Shown here piece by piece: positions 3-43,430 of a stretch of DNA of 53,288 bases; the first letter of the stretch is position 1, and every line of letters starts with the position of its first letter. The notes beneath the pieces were generated by a model that searched no databases, was not told the origin of the DNA, and was given only the letters and a program-made list of their open reading frames with translations. The stretch is from IMG/VR virus record IMGVR_UViG_3300025133_006513, positions 1-53,288 of that record, one strand, 5' to 3'. Source of the stretch: a virus. Position numbers and translations under genes: made by a program.

Positions 3-3000
3 CATCGCTATTTCCTGGACCCAGAGACTGGCATCTTTAGAGTCCAGTTTGGGCAAGCACGTATGCCGTTGATGCCAGTGCTCAAAGCACTGGGTGCCAC
101 GGACAGTCAGCTCCGTAAGGCGTGGGGCAACGAGTTATTCGTTGCCAACGCCAAGAAGACGGACCCGACTACGCTCAAGAAGCTCTACCGCAAGGTTACC
201 CGGAACAAGTCGCCTGAGAATGACGAAGAGATGCATCAGGCTATCCGGAACGCCTTCGCTGACATGGAGCTCGATCCCGAGGTTACTGCTCGAACCCTCG
301 GTAAACCATACGCCACTGTGAACCCAGAGGTTATCTTGGCTTCGACTGCCAAGCTGCTGCGGGTGCATAAGGGTGAGGAGAAGTCCGACGATCGTGATGC
401 TATGGCGTATCAGCGGGTTATGGGTCCAGAGGATCTATTCGCTGAGCGTATGCGTAAAGCTGGCGGTACCATGCGGAATGCCCTATGGAAAGCCACGCTT
501 CCAGGCAATCTAAAGCGTGTACCCCCTGGCCTGATGGACAAGATTGTCCGCGGGGCTATCATCGAGACAGGCCTGGGTAACCCCCTGGAAGAGATCAACC
601 CTGCGGAACTGTACGATCAACGCGTACGAGTGACACGCATGGGCGAAGGCGGTATCCCTAGTAACGACTCAGTGCCAGACGAGGCACGTAACGTACAGCC
701 AAGCCACTTGGGCTTCGTCGACCCAGTCCACACACCAGAATCAGGCAAGATCGGTATCGACGGACGCTTTGCTGTCAGAACCCTCAAGGGCAACGATGGC
801 CGGCTCTACGCTCGCTTCACCGATCCTAAGAATGGCAAACCAATCTGGAAGTCTCCCCAAGATGTTGCTGACGCGATCGTTGCGTTTCCAGGGGAGTTAG
901 AAAAGGGCGAACCTCATGTTCGTGTGCAGCATAAAGGCAAGCTGAAATTTGTTCCTAGGAACAAAGTTGACTATCAGCTTGGCCATATGACAGAGGCTTT
1001 CGGGCCCCTAGCGTCGATGATCCCGCTGAAGGGTGCAGCCTTCGGGCAGCGTATCTCTATGGGTAGTCGATTTCTTTCGCAGGCGCTACCGTTGGTCAAC
1101 GCAGAGTCCCCGCTCGTGCAATCGGGTGTCCCTGGTATGAAGGACACGTCGTTCGAAGACTTGCTTGGCGCCGATATGGGTGCTGTGAAGAGCGAAGTCG
1201 ACGGGACTGTGCTTGAGGTTACACCCAGTCACGTCAAAATACGAGGGAGGGATCGCCGTGTTCATTACGCCGAGCTCTACGAAAACCATCCGTATAACCG
1301 GAAAACCTTTGTTCACAATCGACCCACCGTTAAGGCGGGTGATGCAGTCAAAGCAGGACAACTGCTCGCTGCTTCCAATTTCACAGATGATGGAGGTACG
1401 ACAGCGCTTGGCAAGAACGCCCGAGTCGCGTACCTGCCCTACAAGGGATACAACTTCGAAGACGCAATCGTCGTCTCTGAGTCCTTCGCCAAGCGGGCTT
1501 CGAGCGAACACATGTACCAACACAGCCTCGATCTTGGCGAGGGCGTTAAAGCTAGCAAAAACGCTTACACCGCCATCCTCCCGGGTGAATACGATCGCAA
1601 ACAGCTAGATCGCTACGATGACGACGGAGTTATCAAGATTGGCGAGACAGTCCAGATGGACGAAGCACTGGTGCTGGCAGTGAAAGAACGACAGACGGGT
1701 CCACGACTTGGGCGACGTAAAGCCTCCTGGGGCGATGCATCGATTAAGTGGGAACACCATGAGGAGGGTATTGTTACCGATGTACACAAAGGCAAAAAAG
1801 GCTATTCGGTCGTCGTTAAATCCGTACACCCAACCAAGGTCGGCGATAAGTTCGCGGGTCGATACGGTGACAAAGGGGTTGTCGCAGCGATCGTACCCGA
1901 CGAAGACATGCCGCACGGGGCGGATAAAAGGCCCTACGAAGTGCTACTCAACCCGCTGGGCGTCATCGGCCGAGGTAATCCATCCCAAATCATCGAAACG
2001 CAGCTCGGTAAGATCGCCGCGATCACGGGCAAACCGTACAAACTGATTGACTTCGATGACTTGCGTGATCTTCGTGAGTTCACCGAGCAAGAGCTGCGTA
2101 AGCACGGGCTCAACGACACAGAGGACCTGATCGATCCTAAGACTGGGCGTACGCTCAAAGGCATCGAAGCAGGGAATCGATTCATGATGAAGCTCCACCA
2201 CACTGCAGAGGTTAAGCTCGGCGGTCGTGGTGCTGCTGGTGGTTATACGGCTGAGGGGGCACCCGCTAAGGGCGGAAAGTCGGGATCTAAGCGAGTTGGT
2301 ATGTTAGAGCTCAACGCTCTTTTGTCTCACGGAGCTTATCAGACTATCCGTGATGCCAACGTGGTACGCGGTCAGCGAAACGAAGATCACTGGCGAATGC
2401 TCATGTCCGGGTATACACCCCCAGAGCCTAAAGTTCCCTTCATGTACCAGAAGTTCATGGCACAGTTGAAGGGTGCTGGTATCAATCCAATCAAGGAGGG
2501 GTCCAAGCTCCAGATTCTGGCTATGACTGGCGAGGGGGCCAAAGAGCTTACTGGTAACAGGGAGATCAGAAGCTCTGAAACCGTCGACTGGCGTGTAAAC
2601 AAGCTCTCACCTATTAAAGGGGGTTTGTTCGACGAGGCCCTTACAGGTGGGCACGGAGGTAATCGCTGGAGTTACATCAAGCTACCAGAGCCTTTACCTA
2701 ACCCAGTGATGGAAGAACCTATCAGACGCATCCTCGGGCTAACGCAGAAACAGTACGCCTCTATCTTAAGTGGCGCAGACCACGTGCCTGGTCAGGAAGG
2801 ATTAACTGGGCCGATCGGTATTCAGACGGCATTAGAGGGGATCAACCTCGATAAGGAGATCGTCAAAGCCCGCGCGGATATCAAGTCAGGACGTAAGACA
2901 TACAGGGATAAAGCAGTTCGACGCTTAGAGTTCCTCAAGTCTGCCCAGAAGAACAAGCAACATCCTCGTGAGTGGATGATGGACAGAATCCCGGTATTAC

Positions 3001-3908
3001 CGCCGATCTTCCGTCCAGTGAGCATGTTCGCTGAGACTAACACGCAACTGGTCGATGACTCGAACTACCTCTACAAGGAGGCGTTCGAAGCCGCCGAGAA
3101 CCTAAAGGCACTCGGGAAGATCAGTGATGATGTGTCTGAGGAGCGATTAGCGGTCTACAAGGCTTTCAAGGCTGTCACCGGCCTGGGCGACCCTTTATCC
3201 CCTGAATTCAAGGAACAAGATGTCAAAGGTATCCTTAAGCACGTCTTCGGAACCAGTCCTAAGCATGGTACAGTGCAGAAGAAGCTGCTTGGTAGCACTG
3301 TCGACCTCGTCGGACGGGCTACTATTACGCCAAACCCTAACCTGGATATGGATCAAGTAGGGTTACCGATCGAGGAAGCGTGGACGCTGTATCAGCCGTT
3401 TGTTATTCGTAGGTTGGTTCGTCGTGGGATGGGAAAAGTCAAAGCAATGGAGGAGGCTAAGGCCCGATCGCCTTTAGCGTTGAAGGAGCTGCAGGGCGAG
3501 ATGAAAGAGCGTCCAGTGGTTATTAACCGTGCACCGGTATTGCACCGCTACGGGGTTATGAGCTTCTGGCCACAGCTTACGTCATCGAGCACGCTGGAGA
3601 TTCCGCCGCTAGTCGTCGGGGGTTTTGGGGCTGACTTCGATGGTGATGCGATGCAGTTTCACATCCCTGCGAGTGAGGGAGCAGTTGAGGAAGCAAAATC
3701 AACGTTGATGCCGTCACGAAACTTACACGCTGCTGGTGACTTCGATGTACACTATAAGCCGAGCCATGAGTATGTAGGCGGGTTATGGGCAGCGTCGACG
3801 AAGGACTCGAAGAAACCACCCAGAGTATTTAAGACAAAGAAGGACGCGATCGCTGCTTACCGCAAAGGATCGATCGATGTTGGACAGCGTGTTGAGATCA
3901 TGGAGTAA
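3..3908 (+). CDS. RNA polymerase beta / beta' N-terminal fusion (5' partial)
   Basis: The reading frame is open to the left edge, so the ATG at 63 is internal and the gene begins upstream. The in-window product is over 1,300 residues. Numbering from that Met, beta landmarks come first: VQPSHLGFVDP (about 211-221, the HPTHYGR region) and GDKFAGRYGDKG (594-605), which keeps both active-site lysines (K596, K604). The beta C-terminus (MLELNALLSHGAY) follows. The frame then passes directly into beta': ETVDWRVNKLSP (about 840), IPVLPPIFRP, VINRAPVLHRYG (about 1155) and the metal-binding ADFDGD (Asp 1191, 1193, 1195). The chain stops soon after, so the rest of beta' must come from the gene at 5011. 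The cysteine-rich zinc module normally near the beta' N-terminus is absent. The role is DNA-directed RNA synthesis with the downstream subunit. Beta/beta' identity is clear; the fusion boundary, near residue 830, is inferred. Confidence 0.93.
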   Translation, partial: HRYFLDPETGIFRVQFGQARMPLMPVLKALGATDSQLRKAWGNELFVANAKKTDPTTLKKLYRKVTRNKSPENDEEMHQAIRNAFADMELDPEVTARTLGKPYATVNPEVILASTAKLLRVHKGEEKSDDRDAMAYQRVMGPEDLFAERMRKAGGTMRNALWKATLPGNLKRVPPGLMDKIVRGAIIETGLGNPLEEINPAELYDQRVRVTRMGEGGIPSNDSVPDEARNVQPSHLGFVDPVHTPESGKIGIDGRFAVRTLKGNDGRLYARFTDPKNGKPIWKSPQDVADAIVAFPGELEKGEPHVRVQHKGKLKFVPRNKVDYQLGHMTEAFGPLASMIPLKGAAFGQRISMGSRFLSQALPLVNAESPLVQSGVPGMKDTSFEDLLGADMGAVKSEVDGTVLEVTPSHVKIRGRDRRVHYAELYENHPYNRKTFVHNRPTVKAGDAVKAGQLLAASNFTDDGGTTALGKNARVAYLPYKGYNFEDAIVVSESFAKRASSEHMYQHSLDLGEGVKASKNAYTAILPGEYDRKQLDRYDDDGVIKIGETVQMDEALVLAVKERQTGPRLGRRKASWGDASIKWEHHEEGIVTDVHKGKKGYSVVVKSVHPTKVGDKFAGRYGDKGVVAAIVPDEDMPHGADKRPYEVLLNPLGVIGRGNPSQIIETQLGKIAAITGKPYKLIDFDDLRDLREFTEQELRKHGLNDTEDLIDPKTGRTLKGIEAGNRFMMKLHHTAEVKLGGRGAAGGYTAEGAPAKGGKSGSKRVGMLELNALLSHGAYQTIRDANVVRGQRNEDHWRMLMSGYTPPEPKVPFMYQKFMAQLKGAGINPIKEGSKLQILAMTGEGAKELTGNREIRSSETVDWRVNKLSPIKGGLFDEALTGGHGGNRWSYIKLPEPLPNPVMEEPIRRILGLTQKQYASILSGADHVPGQEGLTGPIGIQTALEGINLDKEIVKARADIKSGRKTYRDKAVRRLEFLKSAQKNKQHPREWMMDRIPVLPPIFRPVSMFAETNTQLVDDSNYLYKEAFEAAENLKALGKISDDVSEERLAVYKAFKAVTGLGDPLSPEFKEQDVKGILKHVFGTSPKHGTVQKKLLGSTVDLVGRATITPNPNLDMDQVGLPIEEAWTLYQPFVIRRLVRRGMGKVKAMEEAKARSPLALKELQGEMKERPVVINRAPVLHRYGVMSFWPQLTSSSTLEIPPLVVGGFGADFDGDAMQFHIPASEGAVEEAKSTLMPSRNLHAAGDFDVHYKPSHEYVGGLWAASTKDSKKPPRVFKTKKDAIAAYRKGSIDVGQRVEIME

Positions 3909-3955
3909 GCCATGCCAGTAGTGCTGTCAAAATTTTCGTCAAAACCCAATACGGA

Positions 3956-3985
3956 ATTGTGTAAACAATCAGCTACAGATATGCT
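3956..3985 (+). promoter_or_regulatory. Intergenic dyad overlapping a weak sigma70-like promoter
   Basis: The 112-nt gap after the RNA polymerase fusion gene holds a perfect inverted repeat, ATTGT-gtaa-ACAAT (3956-3969). A candidate -35 TTGTGT (3957-3962) lies inside it, 17 nt upstream of TATGCT (3980-3985). The box matches are weak. The dyad resembles the TTGTTC-type palindromes at 9862 and 19387, so it could be an operator over a promoter for the gene at 4021. Confidence 0.3.
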
Positions 3986-4020
3986 GGTAAGATATCACTG
4001 ACCCAAATGGAGTTCGCCTC

Positions 4021-4746
4021 ATGGCTAAACACGAAATGAACATGACGCTTTTTGATGTCGCCGCGTGGCGACTGCAGGGCGAGGCAGAGAAGCAAGCCTT
4101 CGTCCCTCAAGGAGCGACCGACCCCGCCGCTGGCGGTGGAGCACCTCCAATGGACCCAGCAATGGGTGGCGCACCTCCAATGGACCCAGCAATGGGTGGG
4201 ATTCCCCCTGGCATGCCTCCTGGTGCACCTCCAATGGACCCAGCTGCAATGGGCATGCCTCCAGCAGCTCCGCCTGCGGCACCTCCCGCGGCCCCTGGCG
4301 CTCCAGCAGCGGGCGGCAAGCCCAAGATTGACCCAACCTTCATCTACATGGAGCTGAGCCGCGTGCGTAAGCTTCTGACGCACATGATGAAGCACACAGG
4401 CATCGACATGCCACCTGATATCCTCGACGACGGTGCGACGGCGATGATCGCCAACGGCCAGATGCCAGAGAGTCAACCGATCGGGCAGCCGGGTGCCGAG
4501 GGTGCTCCCCCTGAAGGAGGGGGAGCACCGGGTGGCCTACCAAGCATCGGGCAGTCGCCGGCGATCGATCCGATCGCTGCTGCTGGTGGTCCTGGAGGCC
4601 CTGGCGGTCCTGAGAAGGGTGCCGGTGATGTGCTTTCAATGTTCCGTGGGCCAGCACCTGCTGACGATGCTTCGCCAAACTACGCTGCGGCTGAGCAACG
4701 CATCAACGCACTATGTGACCTGTCACGAAGCCTCAACGGAAGCTAA
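4021..4746 (+). CDS. Pro/Gly/Met-rich virion-type protein of unknown function
   Basis: 241 aa, starting at ATG after a weak GGAG. Residues 1-30 are ordinary and contain an AEKQAF motif that recurs in the capsid proteins downstream. Residues 35-105 are low-complexity Pro/Gly/Met/Ala repeats of the type APPMDPAMGG. Residues about 108-150 form a likely helical segment (FIYMELSRVRKLLTHMM). A second Pro/Gly-rich stretch and a short helical tail follow. No catalytic motif is visible. The gene lies between the two parts of the RNA polymerase, so it interrupts what would be rpoC. A flexible scaffold-like virion protein or a polymerase partner are both possible; neither is shown. Confidence 0.75.
   Translation: MAKHEMNMTLFDVAAWRLQGEAEKQAFVPQGATDPAAGGGAPPMDPAMGGAPPMDPAMGGIPPGMPPGAPPMDPAAMGMPPAAPPAAPPAAPGAPAAGGKPKIDPTFIYMELSRVRKLLTHMMKHTGIDMPPDILDDGATAMIANGQMPESQPIGQPGAEGAPPEGGGAPGGLPSIGQSPAIDPIAAAGGPGGPGGPEKGAGDVLSMFRGPAPADDASPNYAAAEQRINALCDLSRSLNGS
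4141..4250 (+). repeat. 30-bp in-frame tandem repeat
   Basis: Positions 4141-4170 and 4171-4200 are identical except for the last base. A diverged partial copy starts at 4223. Each unit encodes about ten residues (APPMDPAMGG). The near identity points to recent slippage expansion, so copy number may vary between relatives. Confidence 0.9.
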
Positions 4747-4749
4747 TTG

Positions 4750-5007
4750 ATGATCGTTGAGTTGCATAATAAGCTAGGACAGCCCCAGCGTATTGAAGCC
4801 ACACGCATCGTAATACGCTCCCCTAACGGGGAAGCGTTATGCGTGGCGGTGGAAGCGGGGCCTGGCCAGTATTTCATCACACACCGTGGTGATGGGGACG
4901 AGGACATGAATCGATCCCTACGCTCGCTGGGTATTAATGAGACCGTCATCAGTGATATGCAAAATATGCCGAAGCCGCCAGGCACGCTGTGGACGCCGGG
5001 GAGTTAA
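4750..5007 (+). CDS. Small protein of unknown function between the RNA polymerase halves
   Basis: 86 aa or fewer. The ATG at 4750 is preferred over an in-frame TTG at 4747, directly behind the TAA of the previous gene. The product starts MIVELHNKLGQPQRIEATRI, predicts as mainly beta strand followed by a short helix, and ends in a Pro-rich tail. It has a single Cys, no membrane segment and no motif I know. It ends 3 nt before the GTG of the beta' C-terminal gene, so the two are almost certainly translated from one message. Confidence 0.65.
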   Translation: MIVELHNKLGQPQRIEATRIVIRSPNGEALCVAVEAGPGQYFITHRGDGDEDMNRSLRSLGINETVISDMQNMPKPPGTLWTPGS

Positions 5008-5010
5008 CCT

Positions 5011-6894
5011 GTGCTGCGTACTACTATCGGACAGTTGATGACTAACGAGGCGTTGCCTCCCGATATGCGCGATTACACCCGGGTCATGGATAAAAAAGGA
5101 ATCACGGAGGTATTACGTGTTCTTGCCGAGAAACACCCAGACAAATACCGCGAAGTGGCTAAGAAGCTTTCAGACGTGGGGCGAGATATTGCTTACACTA
5201 CCGGCGGAAGCTCCTTTGGTCTTAAGCATATGCGTCCTACACCTTCTGTACTGATGTCCCGTCAGCGGTTGAATAGACGCCTCCGCGATATCCTCTCCAA
5301 CCCTCAATGGGATGATGATATCAAAGAGCAGAAGGTTGTTGAGGCCACATCGGTCGAACACGAGCGACTCCAGAAAGAGATCCTGGAAGAGGCTAAGAAG
5401 TCTGGGAACCCTCTGGCAGATCAGGTGGTATCTGGTGCCCGTGGTAACCCCGCTGGACTGAAACGCTTGATCGGTGGTGACATGATGTATGTCGATCACC
5501 ATGAGGATGTAATCCCGTTCCCTGTCCAGCGTAGCTTCGCTGAGGGCCTCGGCCCGGCCGACTTCTGGGCGTCGACGTATGGAGCCCGTAAGGGCTTGAT
5601 CGACGTGAAGTTCGCTACACAGGACGCAGGGTTCTTCTCCAAACAACTCAACCAACTGGCACATCGACTGCTCGTTACCCATCATGACGACGAAAACGAA
5701 GCAGATCCTACGGCACCTGTGCGAGGGATGCCTGTCGATGTAAGTGATGGCGACAGCGAAGGATCGCTGTTAGCCGCACCGGTTGGTGAGTATCCACGAA
5801 ACACCACGCTGACTCCCAAGATCCTCCAGGACCTGGAAAACCAGGGCATTGCGAAGATTTTGGTCAGAAGCCCTATCGTTGGTGGCCCTCCTGGTGGTGG
5901 TGTCTACTCCCGAGACGTTGGCGTGAGAGAACGAGGCGGTATGGCCCCGATAGGGGATATGGTTGGTATCGCCGCAGCACAGACACTGTCTGAGAAGCTA
6001 ACCCAAGGCCAGTTGTCATCCAAGCACTCAGGTGGTGTTAAGGGTGAAGCCAAGAGCGTGACAGGCTTCCAGCACGTCAATCAGCTTGTGCAGGTGCCCA
6101 AGACCTTTAAGGGCGGAGCAGCCCACGCACAGATCGACGGCAAGGTTACAAACGTGGAAGAAGCCCCGGCTGGCGGGCAGTACGTTACCGTTAATGCCAA
6201 ACGTCACTTCGTGGCGCCAGGCTTTGACCTCAAAGTTAAGCGAGGCGACCATGTCGAAGCAGGAGACGTCATCTCCGAGGGAATTCCCAACCCCTCGGAG
6301 ATCGTTAAACACAAAGGCATTGGGGAAGGGCGTCGATACTTCGTTGATACTTTTGCTGATGCTTATCGTGCTGGCGGCATGTATGCCAATCGTCGCAATA
6401 TTGAGCTGGTGGCTCGTGGGTTGATCGATCATGTCGAGATGATGGACGAAGATGACGACCACGTACCCGGCGATGTAGTTGGATACCAGCAGCTGGAAAC
6501 CAACTGGAAGCCCCGCGACGGCTCTCAACGACTACAACCAGATGAAGCGACGGGCAAGTACCTCGAACGCCCCGTGTTGCATTACACGATCGGTACGAAG
6601 GTAAAGCCATCAATGCTGCCACAATTCAAACAGTTCGGTGTTAATGACCTGGAAGTGCATGACGAAGAGCCCCCGTTCAAACCACATATGGTGCGAGCAA
6701 TGGCATCCATCGGACACGACCCTGACTGGATGACCCGGTTCCTGGGTTCCAATCAGAAGAAGAGCTTGTTGAACGCAACGCACAGAGGTGCTACATCTTC
6801 CGCGGAGAATACGAGTTTTGTGCCAGCAATGGCGGAAGGCTTAGATTTCGGGAAGACGTGGCCACAATCGATATTGAAGCCCCCTACCACCTAG
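5011..6894 (+). CDS. RNA polymerase beta' C-terminal subunit
   Basis: 627 aa with a GTG start and a GGGGAG site upstream. It begins at the point where bacterial beta' continues after its catalytic core (TTIGQLM...LP). It then shows SGARGN, the bridge helix beginning YGARKG (190-195), and the trigger loop with GIAAAQTLSEKLTQGQ (319-334) and catalytic-type His339 in SKHSGG. Further on are QLVQVPKTF, RGDHVEAGDVISEG, YRAGG and a C-terminal segment matching the end of beta'. At the second zinc site, usually four Cys, the text reads VRSPIVGGPPGGGVYSRD with no cysteine. The trigger helix lacks the usual Met-Arg pair (Leu-Ser instead). Together with the fusion gene ending at 3908 it should complete a beta' chain. 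Confidence 0.93.
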   Translation: MLRTTIGQLMTNEALPPDMRDYTRVMDKKGITEVLRVLAEKHPDKYREVAKKLSDVGRDIAYTTGGSSFGLKHMRPTPSVLMSRQRLNRRLRDILSNPQWDDDIKEQKVVEATSVEHERLQKEILEEAKKSGNPLADQVVSGARGNPAGLKRLIGGDMMYVDHHEDVIPFPVQRSFAEGLGPADFWASTYGARKGLIDVKFATQDAGFFSKQLNQLAHRLLVTHHDDENEADPTAPVRGMPVDVSDGDSEGSLLAAPVGEYPRNTTLTPKILQDLENQGIAKILVRSPIVGGPPGGGVYSRDVGVRERGGMAPIGDMVGIAAAQTLSEKLTQGQLSSKHSGGVKGEAKSVTGFQHVNQLVQVPKTFKGGAAHAQIDGKVTNVEEAPAGGQYVTVNAKRHFVAPGFDLKVKRGDHVEAGDVISEGIPNPSEIVKHKGIGEGRRYFVDTFADAYRAGGMYANRRNIELVARGLIDHVEMMDEDDDHVPGDVVGYQQLETNWKPRDGSQRLQPDEATGKYLERPVLHYTIGTKVKPSMLPQFKQFGVNDLEVHDEEPPFKPHMVRAMASIGHDPDWMTRFLGSNQKKSLLNATHRGATSSAENTSFVPAMAEGLDFGKTWPQSILKPPTT

Positions 6895-9882: not shown

Positions 9883-10833
9883 ATGAGCATCCTGGTAAAC
9901 AGACCTGATAACAAAAGGCGTCCAGCAAACTGGCGGTGGATGCGAGCGTGCGAACTTGCAGACGGAGCACGCTTAGTCCGCGGTCGCGATGATGAGATTG
10001 TGCGTTTTGCCAGTAAATTTCGTCGTCTGATGGACCGATGTGAATCGGACGAGGATAAGCTGGAGGCGCTTGACGCACAACCCGCGATGTTCGAAGCATA
10101 CACGATCTACATGGGTGAAGATGATGCGAGCGAGGTTAAGTGGGAGCTGGAAGCACGACTGCTTGGCGGCGAACCTGTAGCCTCGATCGAAGCGAAGCTG
10201 GGAATCGACCCTGCTACGATCTTCACATATGAGCGTGTGTTCTTCGATGTACTGAGCCGACGACACTCTACGAGCTTAATGGTCCATGTGGTGATCGGAC
10301 GGTCTGTACAGACTGGCCTTGCGGAGCGCGAGTACGACTGCCTATGGAAGCTCTTTAGTTATTTCGCCGGTATCCCAGTGCTGGACGCCTATATCTGGAA
10401 GTTTAATGGCGTGAAACACGTTGAAAGTGCAGATGGGGTGCGGACGGCATTCCGAGAAATTGCAAAAGATACCATAATGTCAAAGGCAGCTGTCACTGCG
10501 TTGACGCTACCAGCTAACTGGCAGAACAATGAGTTGATCCTGGGCACATGGCAGCAAATATGTGGGCAGGAGCAGATGGCCGGGCAAGCTAGTGGTGGTA
10601 CTGAAGTGATGATGCAGAACGTCGCTGTTTTGGTTGAAGGGTTCCAGCCGCTACTGCACAAGCACATACACGGCGTGGATCCAACACCAGGCGGTATTAT
10701 CGATGAGATCGAAGACACAGGTGTACGGTTACGCTCTGACGAGCTAGCTGCTATTGCCACAGGCAACGATGTGTCTGGGTTTGAACACTTCATTACCGCT
10801 AAGTTCCCTGATTCCCAAGGTGAGGACAAATGA
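9883..10833 (+). CDS. Conserved phage protein with helix-turn-helix-like segment
   Basis: 316 aa, almost wholly helical and soluble. It opens with a basic N-terminus (NKRRPANWRWMRACELADGA). Residues about 85-115 (EPVASIEAKLGIDPATIFTY) have the spacing of a helix-turn-helix, followed by ERVFFDV. The C-terminal half is Ala/Leu-rich helix. Position in the capsid module and the DNA-binding-like segment allow a small-terminase or head-assembly role, but I see no diagnostic motif. It has no clear ribosome binding site because the palindrome at 9862 takes its place. It overlaps the next gene by 4 nt (ATGA). Confidence 0.7.
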   Translation: MSILVNRPDNKRRPANWRWMRACELADGARLVRGRDDEIVRFASKFRRLMDRCESDEDKLEALDAQPAMFEAYTIYMGEDDASEVKWELEARLLGGEPVASIEAKLGIDPATIFTYERVFFDVLSRRHSTSLMVHVVIGRSVQTGLAEREYDCLWKLFSYFAGIPVLDAYIWKFNGVKHVESADGVRTAFREIAKDTIMSKAAVTALTLPANWQNNELILGTWQQICGQEQMAGQASGGTEVMMQNVAVLVEGFQPLLHKHIHGVDPTPGGIIDEIEDTGVRLRSDELAAIATGNDVSGFEHFITAKFPDSQGEDK

Positions 10834-42689: not shown

Positions 42690-43430
42690 ATGCCAAAGAA
42701 TATGCTAGAGCCTGACTACCAGTTGCCATATGACAATTGGGTAGCTGATCCATCCCCTACGAACACTGGGCAGCTGATTAAAGCTGTCAAACCGGTGCTG
42801 AGTTCAGCGGTGCGAGCGTACGGGGGTACGTCTGCCAGGAGCACGAACATTAAGTCACAGGCCAAGCGTATGGCTGCCGACGCCTTCAGTTCGTATGATC
42901 CAGCACGGGGCACATTGAAATCACACCTCATGTCACGCCTTCAGCGGTTACGCCGAGTGGCAGCCCAGCAGCGGCAGGTCATCCGTGTCCCAGAGCAGGT
43001 AGCTCTCGATCAGATGCGATCGGACGCTGCGACACGTGAATTGGAAGAGAGCCTGGGTTATCCTCCATCAGACCAGCAACTCGCGGATTACACGAATTTG
43101 TCGCTTAAACGCCTCGCATACATCAGAGGGAGTGAGCGCCCACTCGCGGAGAGTACGATTTCGCGTGGTGGCGAGGAGGGCCTTGGTGGCTACGATCCGC
43201 GGGTTCGATCGCTAGCAAAACCCGCAGACGCGTGGGAGGAGCTTATCTACGATGACATCGATGAGACTAACCAGTTCATTATGGAGCGTGTGCTCGGAAT
43301 GCACGGACATCAGCCAACCAAGCCCAGTCAGGTGGCTGTGATGTTGAAAATTAGCCCTGCCGCCGTAAGCCATCGCATGGCCCAGATTCAAGCAAAACTG
43401 GACAAGCGAGAAGACTTGGGGATGATCTAA
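42690..43430 (+). CDS. Sigma70-family-like transcription factor
   Basis: 246 aa. AKRMAADAFSSYDPARGTLK (59-78) resembles sigma region 2 (the AFDPSRG-type turn). RQVIRVPEQV (about 95-104) matches the VRVP start of region 3. LEESLGYPPSDQQLADYTNL (about 118-137) is the (E)LGREPTDEELA helix pair. The C-terminal SQVAVMLKISPAAVSHRMAQ (about 213-232) has region 4 helix-turn-helix spacing. Similar proteins are, as I recall, called sigma factors in other large phages. It would recruit an RNA polymerase, most simply the phage enzyme encoded at 1-6.9 kb, to late promoters. It stands between hub and baseplate genes and is 1 nt overlapped with the next. Confidence 0.7.
   Translation: MPKNMLEPDYQLPYDNWVADPSPTNTGQLIKAVKPVLSSAVRAYGGTSARSTNIKSQAKRMAADAFSSYDPARGTLKSHLMSRLQRLRRVAAQQRQVIRVPEQVALDQMRSDAATRELEESLGYPPSDQQLADYTNLSLKRLAYIRGSERPLAESTISRGGEEGLGGYDPRVRSLAKPADAWEELIYDDIDETNQFIMERVLGMHGHQPTKPSQVAVMLKISPAAVSHRMAQIQAKLDKREDLGMI

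Follow-up and report, generated by a model that had tools for sequence, protein, structure and literature searches.

The closest described systems to the locus considered here, a multisubunit RNA polymerase encoded at the start of a 53,288-base stretch of viral DNA (the window; bases 1–53288, the first third, of the 153,465-base IMG/VR virus record IMGVR_UViG_3300025133_006513), are those of Salmonella phage Arash (OQ632216) and Vibrio phages D69, D148 and D181, which have the same two-gene plan (D148 judged from hit tables only). In Arash and D69, as in the window, beta and the N-terminal part of beta' (beta'N) form one open reading frame (ORF; 1525 amino acids (aa) in Arash, 1527 in D69), the remainder of beta' (beta'C) is a separate protein of 606–609 aa, and a divergent sigma factor is encoded. 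The identity of the isolates to the window (tblastn) is about 31% for the fused chain and 25–30% for beta'C. The isolates differ from the window in the genes between the halves, which occupy 0.6 to 4.8 kb, and in keeping the second zinc site of beta'C that the window has lost; D181, unlike the window, also has a group I intron in the fused gene.

Several more distant systems share part of this plan. The mReC phages (Weinheimer and Aylward 2020) resemble the window phage in being tailed and in having beta and beta' that are readable by cellular profiles and appear to stand apart from those of cells. In the main text of that paper, “fused” or “fusion” is applied to crAss-like phages alone, and neither “split” nor “sigma” occurs; the published screen required NADxDGD and, for each of the two subunits, a minimum score of 80 and 800 aa, and the window would escape it because its motif is GADFDGD. 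A viral gene labelled “RNAP beta and beta prime” has been placed at the base of the mReC clade in a 2023 paper (PMC10159854). The phiKZ-like and AR9-like phages are like the window in having no alpha or omega and a beta' that is cut after the catalytic barrel, at a site shared with cyanobacteria (Sokolova 2020, PMC7598289). In phiKZ-like phages, however, beta is separate and itself split, two enzymes are present and no initiation factor is recognisable (PMC7598289), whereas the window has a beta-beta'N fusion, a single detected enzyme and a sigma factor. In the crAss-like and YonO-type enzymes both catalytic halves reside in one protein, as here (PMC7481178, PMC7824862), but these are reported as too divergent for cellular beta and beta' profiles (PMC7481178), whereas the window polymerase is found at E 1e-54. 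Cobetia phage Carin-5 (PV155638) is akin to the window phage in having polymerase subunit genes with an adjoining sigma-factor gene; it differs in that the polymerase ORFs are two and separate, no fusion is annotated, and our sigma profile A4 (see below) finds no match.

Fused and split phage polymerases are known separately, but in the open-access literature we found no report of their combination: among the matches listed, neither fused-and-split phage polymerases nor the divergent sigma factor are described (most subscription journals lie outside this coverage), and the phrase “Salmonella phage Arash” was not found there. The analysis below suggests that the window probably encodes a two-chain catalytic core that functions without alpha or omega, is completed by a sigma factor of its own and derives from an ancestral single chain that was cut once. 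Somewhat less firmly, we lean towards the view that it belongs to a widespread but hardly described class of tailed phages with an alpha- and omega-free giant beta-beta' chain and a dedicated sigma factor, in one branch of which the chain was re-cut after the barrel, in the same stretch as in cyanobacteria and phiKZ-like phages. An earlier interpretation of the DNA from its letters alone (the sequence-only reading) had implied that the plan is rare; in fact, it recurs in the four isolated phages and in many contigs.

The two polymerase chains and the position of the cut

The relevant features of the window are as follows.

3–3908, plus strand: fused beta + beta'N subunit, 1301 codons present, 5' end off the contig (Pfam; end-to-end alignment with Arash gp206 and D69)
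1848–1874, plus strand: beta catalytic lysines K616 and K624 (E. coli K1065 and K1073; alignment)
2520–2612, plus strand: beta/beta' junction region, approximate, a direct in-frame fusion (alignment to isolates and Salmonella RpoC)
3633–3647, plus strand: catalytic DFDGD of beta' (residues 1211–1215), in the context GADFDGD rather than NADFDGD (alignment)
4021–4746, plus strand: Pro/Gly/Met-rich 241-aa gene with PPMDP repeats (homologues at the same place in relatives)
4747–5007, plus strand: 86-aa gene, 3 bases ahead of beta'C (conserved in the sub-lineage)
5011–6894, plus strand: beta'C subunit with bridge helix, trigger loop and beta' C-terminus (PF04998, phmmer, AlphaFold2)
5554–5661, plus strand: bridge-helix region (predicted helix 182–217; alignment)
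6013–6027, plus strand: trigger-loop tip LSSKH (E. coli MRTFH, 932–936; alignment)
42690–43430, plus strand: divergent sigma-70-type factor, 246 aa, candidate initiation factor (family profile, PDB match, model)

A Pfam search with ORF 3–3908 identifies PF00562 (Rpb2 domain 6, 1.4e-54), PF04565 (Rpb2 domain 3, 5.7e-7) and PF00623 (Rpb1 domain 2, 2.1e-23), with Rpb2 domain 2 and Rpb1 domain 1 (PF04997, 4.2e-4) below the cut-offs. ORF 5011–6894, which starts with GTG and encodes 627 aa, matches PF04998 (Rpb1 domain 5) at 2.4e-21. Given these E-values, the homology of the polymerase ORFs is not due to chance. The hallmarks of double-psi-barrel polymerases, namely the beta lysine pair and the beta' DxDGD, are both present, and they are the same in Arash gp206 and D69 save for an F/Y exchange within DFDGD. 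Lysine occupies both sites in 119 of the 120 sequences compared, the remaining one being a gap in a T-type sequence (layouts are defined below). NADFDGD accounts for 83 of the 147 motif hits in the loci before removal of duplicates. The reading frame extends 86 codons beyond DFDGD to the stop at 3908, and the N-terminal zinc ribbon of beta' is deleted just after the junction, as in the 12 phage sequences inspected. The fused ORF is open at its 5' end (from base 3) because the contig and the window begin at the same point. Comparison with the relative L006, in which the stop-to-stop ORF runs from 9527 and the match from 10001, indicates that at most 158 codons of beta are missing. The far end of the contig holds unrelated small ORFs and no continuation of the beta start, so that joining the contig ends does not recover it.

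The beta'C protein matches the beta' chains of solved structures, with a phmmer E-value of 8.7e-38 to 8i23_D. Its AlphaFold2 model (predicted local distance difference test, pLDDT, 80.8; predicted TM-score, pTM, 0.67) is matched by bacterial beta' chains, with the best E-value of 1.4e-28 and TMq of 0.64–0.72 among the 50 matches listed. Both the bridge helix and the trigger loop lie in this chain. In the trigger loop of the window, H936 is kept, R933 is replaced by S and F935 by K; more generally, H936 is retained wherever the residue aligns, position 933 is S, G or N in the sequences of the split (S and T) layouts, and position 935 is K or R in all 35 of them, in contrast to F in 68 of 73 F-type sequences and in 10 of 11 cellular records. 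All five sequences that represent the sub-lineage of the window lack the second zinc site. In the 35 S and T sequences of the tree described below, the cut maps to Salmonella beta' residues ~552–567 (29 of them at 552–553), between the catalytic barrel and the bridge helix. On the Streptomyces beta' (8k60_D), the fused chain extends to ~629 and beta'C begins at ~658; the start of the cyanobacterial RpoC2 chain 8h3v_B falls about 17 residues into the window beta'C, in the same stretch but at a different residue.

Judged by homology and conservation, the parts are those of a polymerase core. The central claims of the sequence-only reading are borne out by the domain matches in both chains, the alignments and the motif positions: beta with both lysines runs in frame into beta' up to DFDGD, the remainder of beta', which includes the bridge helix, the trigger loop and the C-terminus, is encoded by a separate gene 1.1 kb downstream, and fusion is combined with a cut after the catalytic core.

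Relatives, layouts and the history of the cut

A scan of viral contigs with a single sequence detects no relatives, but alignment-based scans do. The best 80 of 295 relatives from the IMG/VR profile scan were kept, so the layout counts are those of a sample; a scan with beta'C contributed 75 loci, some on the same contigs. Removal of duplicates by the catalytic peptide left 150 distinct loci, outgroups included. Among these, 73 encode beta and beta' as one ORF (F layout), the commonest form among the relatives found; 29 have the two-piece layout of the window (S), and 15 are labelled three-piece (T), with L159 doubtful. Another 15 show either a separate beta or beta' alone (11 of these are cellular), and 18 are partial. 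The F-type ORFs mostly span 2,010–2,200 codons from stop to stop, several longer ones carrying inteins. In the T layout (L106, L120, L124, L135, L149, L155), beta and the beginning of beta' share one ORF of 1115–1185 codons where complete, followed by a catalytic beta' piece of ~380–440 codons and then by beta'C; the first cut lies near Salmonella beta' residues 164–175.

A FastTree tree could be built for the 123 loci with both beta and beta' (>900 aa). The 29 S and six placeable T sequences, together with the incomplete L084, form one clade with local support of 1.00, outside all F forms. An IQ-TREE analysis of 48 hand-chosen taxa (1576 columns) recovers the split clade with ultrafast bootstrap (UFBoot) of 100. 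On the 120 labelled tips (the tree without L158, L024 and L084), the cut of beta' requires a single Fitch change, compared with a mean of 30.4 and a minimum of 24 for shuffled labels, and the beta-beta' fusion requires two, the second most simply assigned to L074. The phage sequences are separate from the 11 cellular records in the 123-sequence tree and from the six of them included in the IQ-TREE analysis. The fusion thus appears to be common to the phage family, and given the single split clade and the single Fitch change, the cut is most simply interpreted as one derived event. The tree contains no sequence named by Weinheimer and Aylward (2020), whose mReC enzymes are likely the F-type of this analysis.

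A PHROGs scan of 20 other window proteins yields one match to a tail sheath and one to a baseplate wedge protein, which indicate a contractile-tailed phage. The sequence-only reading is thus upheld in identifying a multisubunit polymerase of a tailed phage, which groups apart from the cellular sequences in the tree and resembles the deep-branching phage polymerases to which that reading referred.

The gap between the halves (3909–5010) holds the 241-aa gene and the 86-aa gene (86 aa if read from TTG; there is an in-frame ATG at 4750), both seen in the sequence-only reading, which took them for foreign genes splitting beta'. Their conservation within the sub-lineage of the window marks both as native rather than foreign: in 12 loci (the window among them), and also in L006, this gap contains a homologue of the 241-aa gene, and L006, L007, L087, L088 (almost the same as L087) and L094 all show the fused ORF followed by the 241-aa gene, the 86-aa gene and beta'C. 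Other sub-lineages have different genes between the halves, and the gap ranges from 0 (L124) to ~9.6 kb (L117). Insertion of foreign genes as the cause of the split was accordingly rejected. The 241-aa protein contains repeated PPMDPxMMGG-like units, the number of which varies among relatives.

Two alternative explanations bear on the origin of the split gene. An assembly error or a decayed, inactive polymerase might be suspected given that the window starts inside a gene at the contig edge, but both can be practically discounted: the same order recurs in five other loci, the isolates agree and the catalytic residues are conserved. Moreover, third codon positions account for the largest share of differences in every comparison (including L012, where the same genes lie farther apart), and for more than half except in the 241-aa gene of L094 (140/298). 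The recurrence of the order and these third-position-rich differences speak against an assembly error, so the misassembly envisaged in the sequence-only reading, in the segment between 3908 and 5011 or at the fusion join, is rejected. It is also rather improbable, though less remote, that split genes came first and that the single-ORF forms arose by secondary fusion. Such a history would fit the proposal that phiKZ-type enzymes are relics that antedate the last universal common ancestor (LUCA) and not products of splitting (PMC7824862). It also draws on features of the trees that weigh against a single derived cut, in that the root of the phages falls on a long branch and the F-type forms are not firmly resolved, several of their nodes having UFBoot of 21–75; in addition, nine T-labelled and ten beta'C-only loci are outside the tree. 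However, the cellular outgroups have an intact beta', one Fitch change suffices for a split clade with UFBoot of 100, and the K or R at trigger-loop position 935 departs from the F shared by most cellular records and intact phage enzymes.

Under the favoured scenario of a single derived cut, the ancestral phage enzyme would have consisted of one beta-beta' chain of ~2,100 aa; beta' would then have been cut once, after the catalytic barrel, in the lineage ancestral to the clade that includes Arash, D69 and the window, and in a sub-branch it would have been cut again, the genes now between the halves being ordinary genes of the respective lineages. Two published arguments on origins rest on broken-up genes: the cut site shared with cyanobacteria has been offered as a hint of cyanobacterial origin, independent appearance being also allowed (PMC7598289), and the phiKZ-type enzymes have been interpreted as pre-LUCA relics (PMC7824862). 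The present family puts intact fused and cut versions on one tree, with the cut most simply placed once in that very stretch, which suggests that split viral polymerase genes can be a later change and not a relic. If this is correct, split phage polymerases would be recurrent derived products, neither relics nor proof of cyanobacterial origin.

Several single loci deserve mention. In L074, which belongs to the intact branch, the beta and beta' ORFs abut with a stop between them, either a secondary un-fusion or a sequence error. L158, from the large phage record G057 (275 kb), has two sets of beta and beta' pieces and is the only candidate for phiKZ-type placement, but its very long branch is not readable in the tree. 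L161 encodes a single-ORF beta-beta' of 2167 codons on a contig binned as a Deltaproteobacteria metagenome-assembled genome and is probably a mis-binned phage. Conversely, OR844998, OR846602 and CAKLQH020000005 are filed as phages yet carry bacterial-type rpoB-rpoC; host contamination is likely for CAKLQH020000005 because these genes sit behind ribosomal-protein genes.

Partner subunits, the sigma-like protein and the proposed working

Partner subunits, the genes for which the sequence-only reading had suggested looking, were sought in 50 genome records, of which 33 belong to the split type or its branch and 17 are F-type. Alpha is found in none of the 50 by either of two models, each positive in 13 of 14 control genomes, and omega in none by a model positive in all 14; the window contig is included in both counts. 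A single beta barrel match was obtained in each of 12 family members, including the incomplete window contig, in a search of limited sensitivity given that it detects two matches in AR9 but a single one in phiKZ, for which two enzymes are reported.

The divergent sigma factor was detected only through relatives, by following weak hits. Profile A4, built from 5 of the 50 records, matches this family in 43 of them (29/33 split, 14/17 F), with an E-value of 2.7e-98 in the window contig (42678–43427), and has no match in ten control records (T4, phiKZ, SPO1, AR9, G, P1, N4, RHph_Y65, Carin-5 and that of L158). The canonical sigma-70 region 2 (PF04542) is found in 25 of the 50 records (20/33 split, 5/17 F); the window contig has no match to it or to the ordinary sigma profile A3. 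Searched against PDB, a 13-member profile of the divergent family identifies SigB at 1.2e-12 over positions 35–235 of 239, with SigB and SigA matches at ~1e-12 to 1e-10. Pfam detects sigma70_r3 in 12 of the 13 members and sigma70_r4 in three, and does not detect region 2; the window protein alone stays under the sigma70_r3 cut-off (21.4 vs 25.3 bits). Sigma chains, as judged by title and chain, are among the 50 matches listed for the structural model of the window protein (pLDDT 77.8, pTM 0.41), with TMq of at most 0.33 and poor global superposition. At the level of the family profile, sequence and fold are those of sigma-70, from region 2 to region 4. As a single-sequence query, the window protein has no match in 50,697 phage records. 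In the same records, coverage of at least 80% of Arash gp10 is found only in Arash, D69, D148 and D181, and ten others match it over 32–58%, nine of them Synechococcus phages (seven annotated as sigma-factor) and one unannotated. Among the 16 contigs from the sigma scan, 13 carry the polymerase.

These observations are compatible with the following working of the enzyme, which we regard as probable overall. The beta-beta'N fusion unites the two double-psi barrels with their conserved lysines and aspartates, and the covalent joining of beta to beta' would stand in for the assembly platform provided by alpha and omega. The beta'C chain, the gene for which is probably translationally coupled to the 86-aa gene because it starts 3 bases after it, would dock non-covalently and close the active site. 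The sigma-like protein (42690–43430) would complete the holoenzyme and provide promoter choice, such that phage genes are transcribed from phage promoters. The functional holoenzyme would then consist of just two or three polypeptides.

A number of points count against this scheme. Absence by profile leaves room for unrecognisable replacements of alpha or omega. A distance of 36 kb separates the sigma gene from the polymerase genes, and their pairing is based on co-occurrence, with 3 of the 16 sigma contigs lacking the polymerase and 7 of the 50 polymerase records lacking a sigma match (IMG/VR records may be fragments). Given the pTM of 0.41, only parts of the sigma model are credible and not their arrangement. 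Profile A4 also matches an ordinary sigma factor in G040 (7.3e-14), so that its weakest matches (G046, 7.5e-11; G044, 5.0e-16, which has an in-frame stop) may represent ordinary sigmas too. A motif search of 16 intergenic regions did not reveal a promoter motif: at a width of 10 bases it returned the Shine-Dalgarno sequence, and at 16 bases its score of 150.9 compares with a maximum of 148.2 over four shuffles.

T4 gp55 redirects the host RNA polymerase, and the sigma-like protein might act in the same way, the phage enzyme using another factor or none. That half of the records also carry a more ordinary sigma factor would fit this alternative, as would the partial gp10 matches in the Synechococcus phages and the unannotated record, and polymerase-less phages encode sigma factors thought to recruit the host core (PMC7824862). 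We nevertheless consider it unlikely because, among the 50,697 phage records, relatives of gp10 with at least 80% coverage are confined to the four isolates with fused polymerases, T4, SPO1, phage G, P1 and N4 have no match to the profile, and the family accompanies intact and split polymerases alike. A further proposal, which concerns timing and is compatible with the scheme favoured above, is that virions carry the polymerase and that it initiates early transcription upon injection. The fused gene of Arash is the second gene after the portal gene, the window sigma gene is near the baseplate wedge gene, and phiKZ-type phages package one of their two enzymes (PMC7598289). However, the Arash stretches examined label several genes as structural protein, on a basis that is not given, and gp206, gp216 and gp10 are not among them; packaging is possible, with chances we put below even.

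The probable two-chain enzyme with its own candidate sigma factor is of experimental interest: it is apparently alpha-free yet close enough to bacterial RNA polymerase for modelling, and Arash grows on Salmonella ATCC 14028, so that alpha-less assembly and promoter choice are directly testable. Beside the divergent sigma factor, the branch that includes Arash and the T-type enzymes has a second, more ordinary sigma-70 family (Arash gp196, L190; L183–L185, L191, L192). A 57,853-base contig (L214) encodes a sigma protein identical to that of the window over 246 aa and hence probably comes from the same phage, or one very close to it, in a different sample.

Inteins and introns in the polymerase genes of relatives

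The polymerase genes of this family are clearly targets of mobile elements. Intein-like inserts interrupt conserved polymerase motifs in L094, L007, L014, L019, L145, L148, L152, L154, L071, L075, L097, L104 and L103. L094 has four of them, two in beta (at 565 and, between the catalytic lysines, at 1066) and one each in the bridge helix and the trigger loop; L071 and L075 have one inside DFDGD. LAGLIDADG domains were identified in all four proteins scanned, that of L007 below the Pfam cut-off. At the actual split site, no intein or intron element was found: the 230 ORFs in the gaps of split-type loci have no blastp match (E 1e-3) to 11 inteins and two homing endonucleases of relatives, and Rfam at the gathering threshold gives nothing in 12 whole split-type loci or in the window. 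An intron or intein at this site was therefore rejected as a candidate; intron mobility has been proposed as the maker of the phiKZ splits (PMC7598289). In Vibrio phage D181 (L005), a group I intron (RF00028, 2.1e-26) interrupts the beta part of the fused gene, from 10074–10354 onwards, and the stretch also holds an annotated homing endonuclease, whereas the D69 gene is uninterrupted. A similar interruption is seen in L140.

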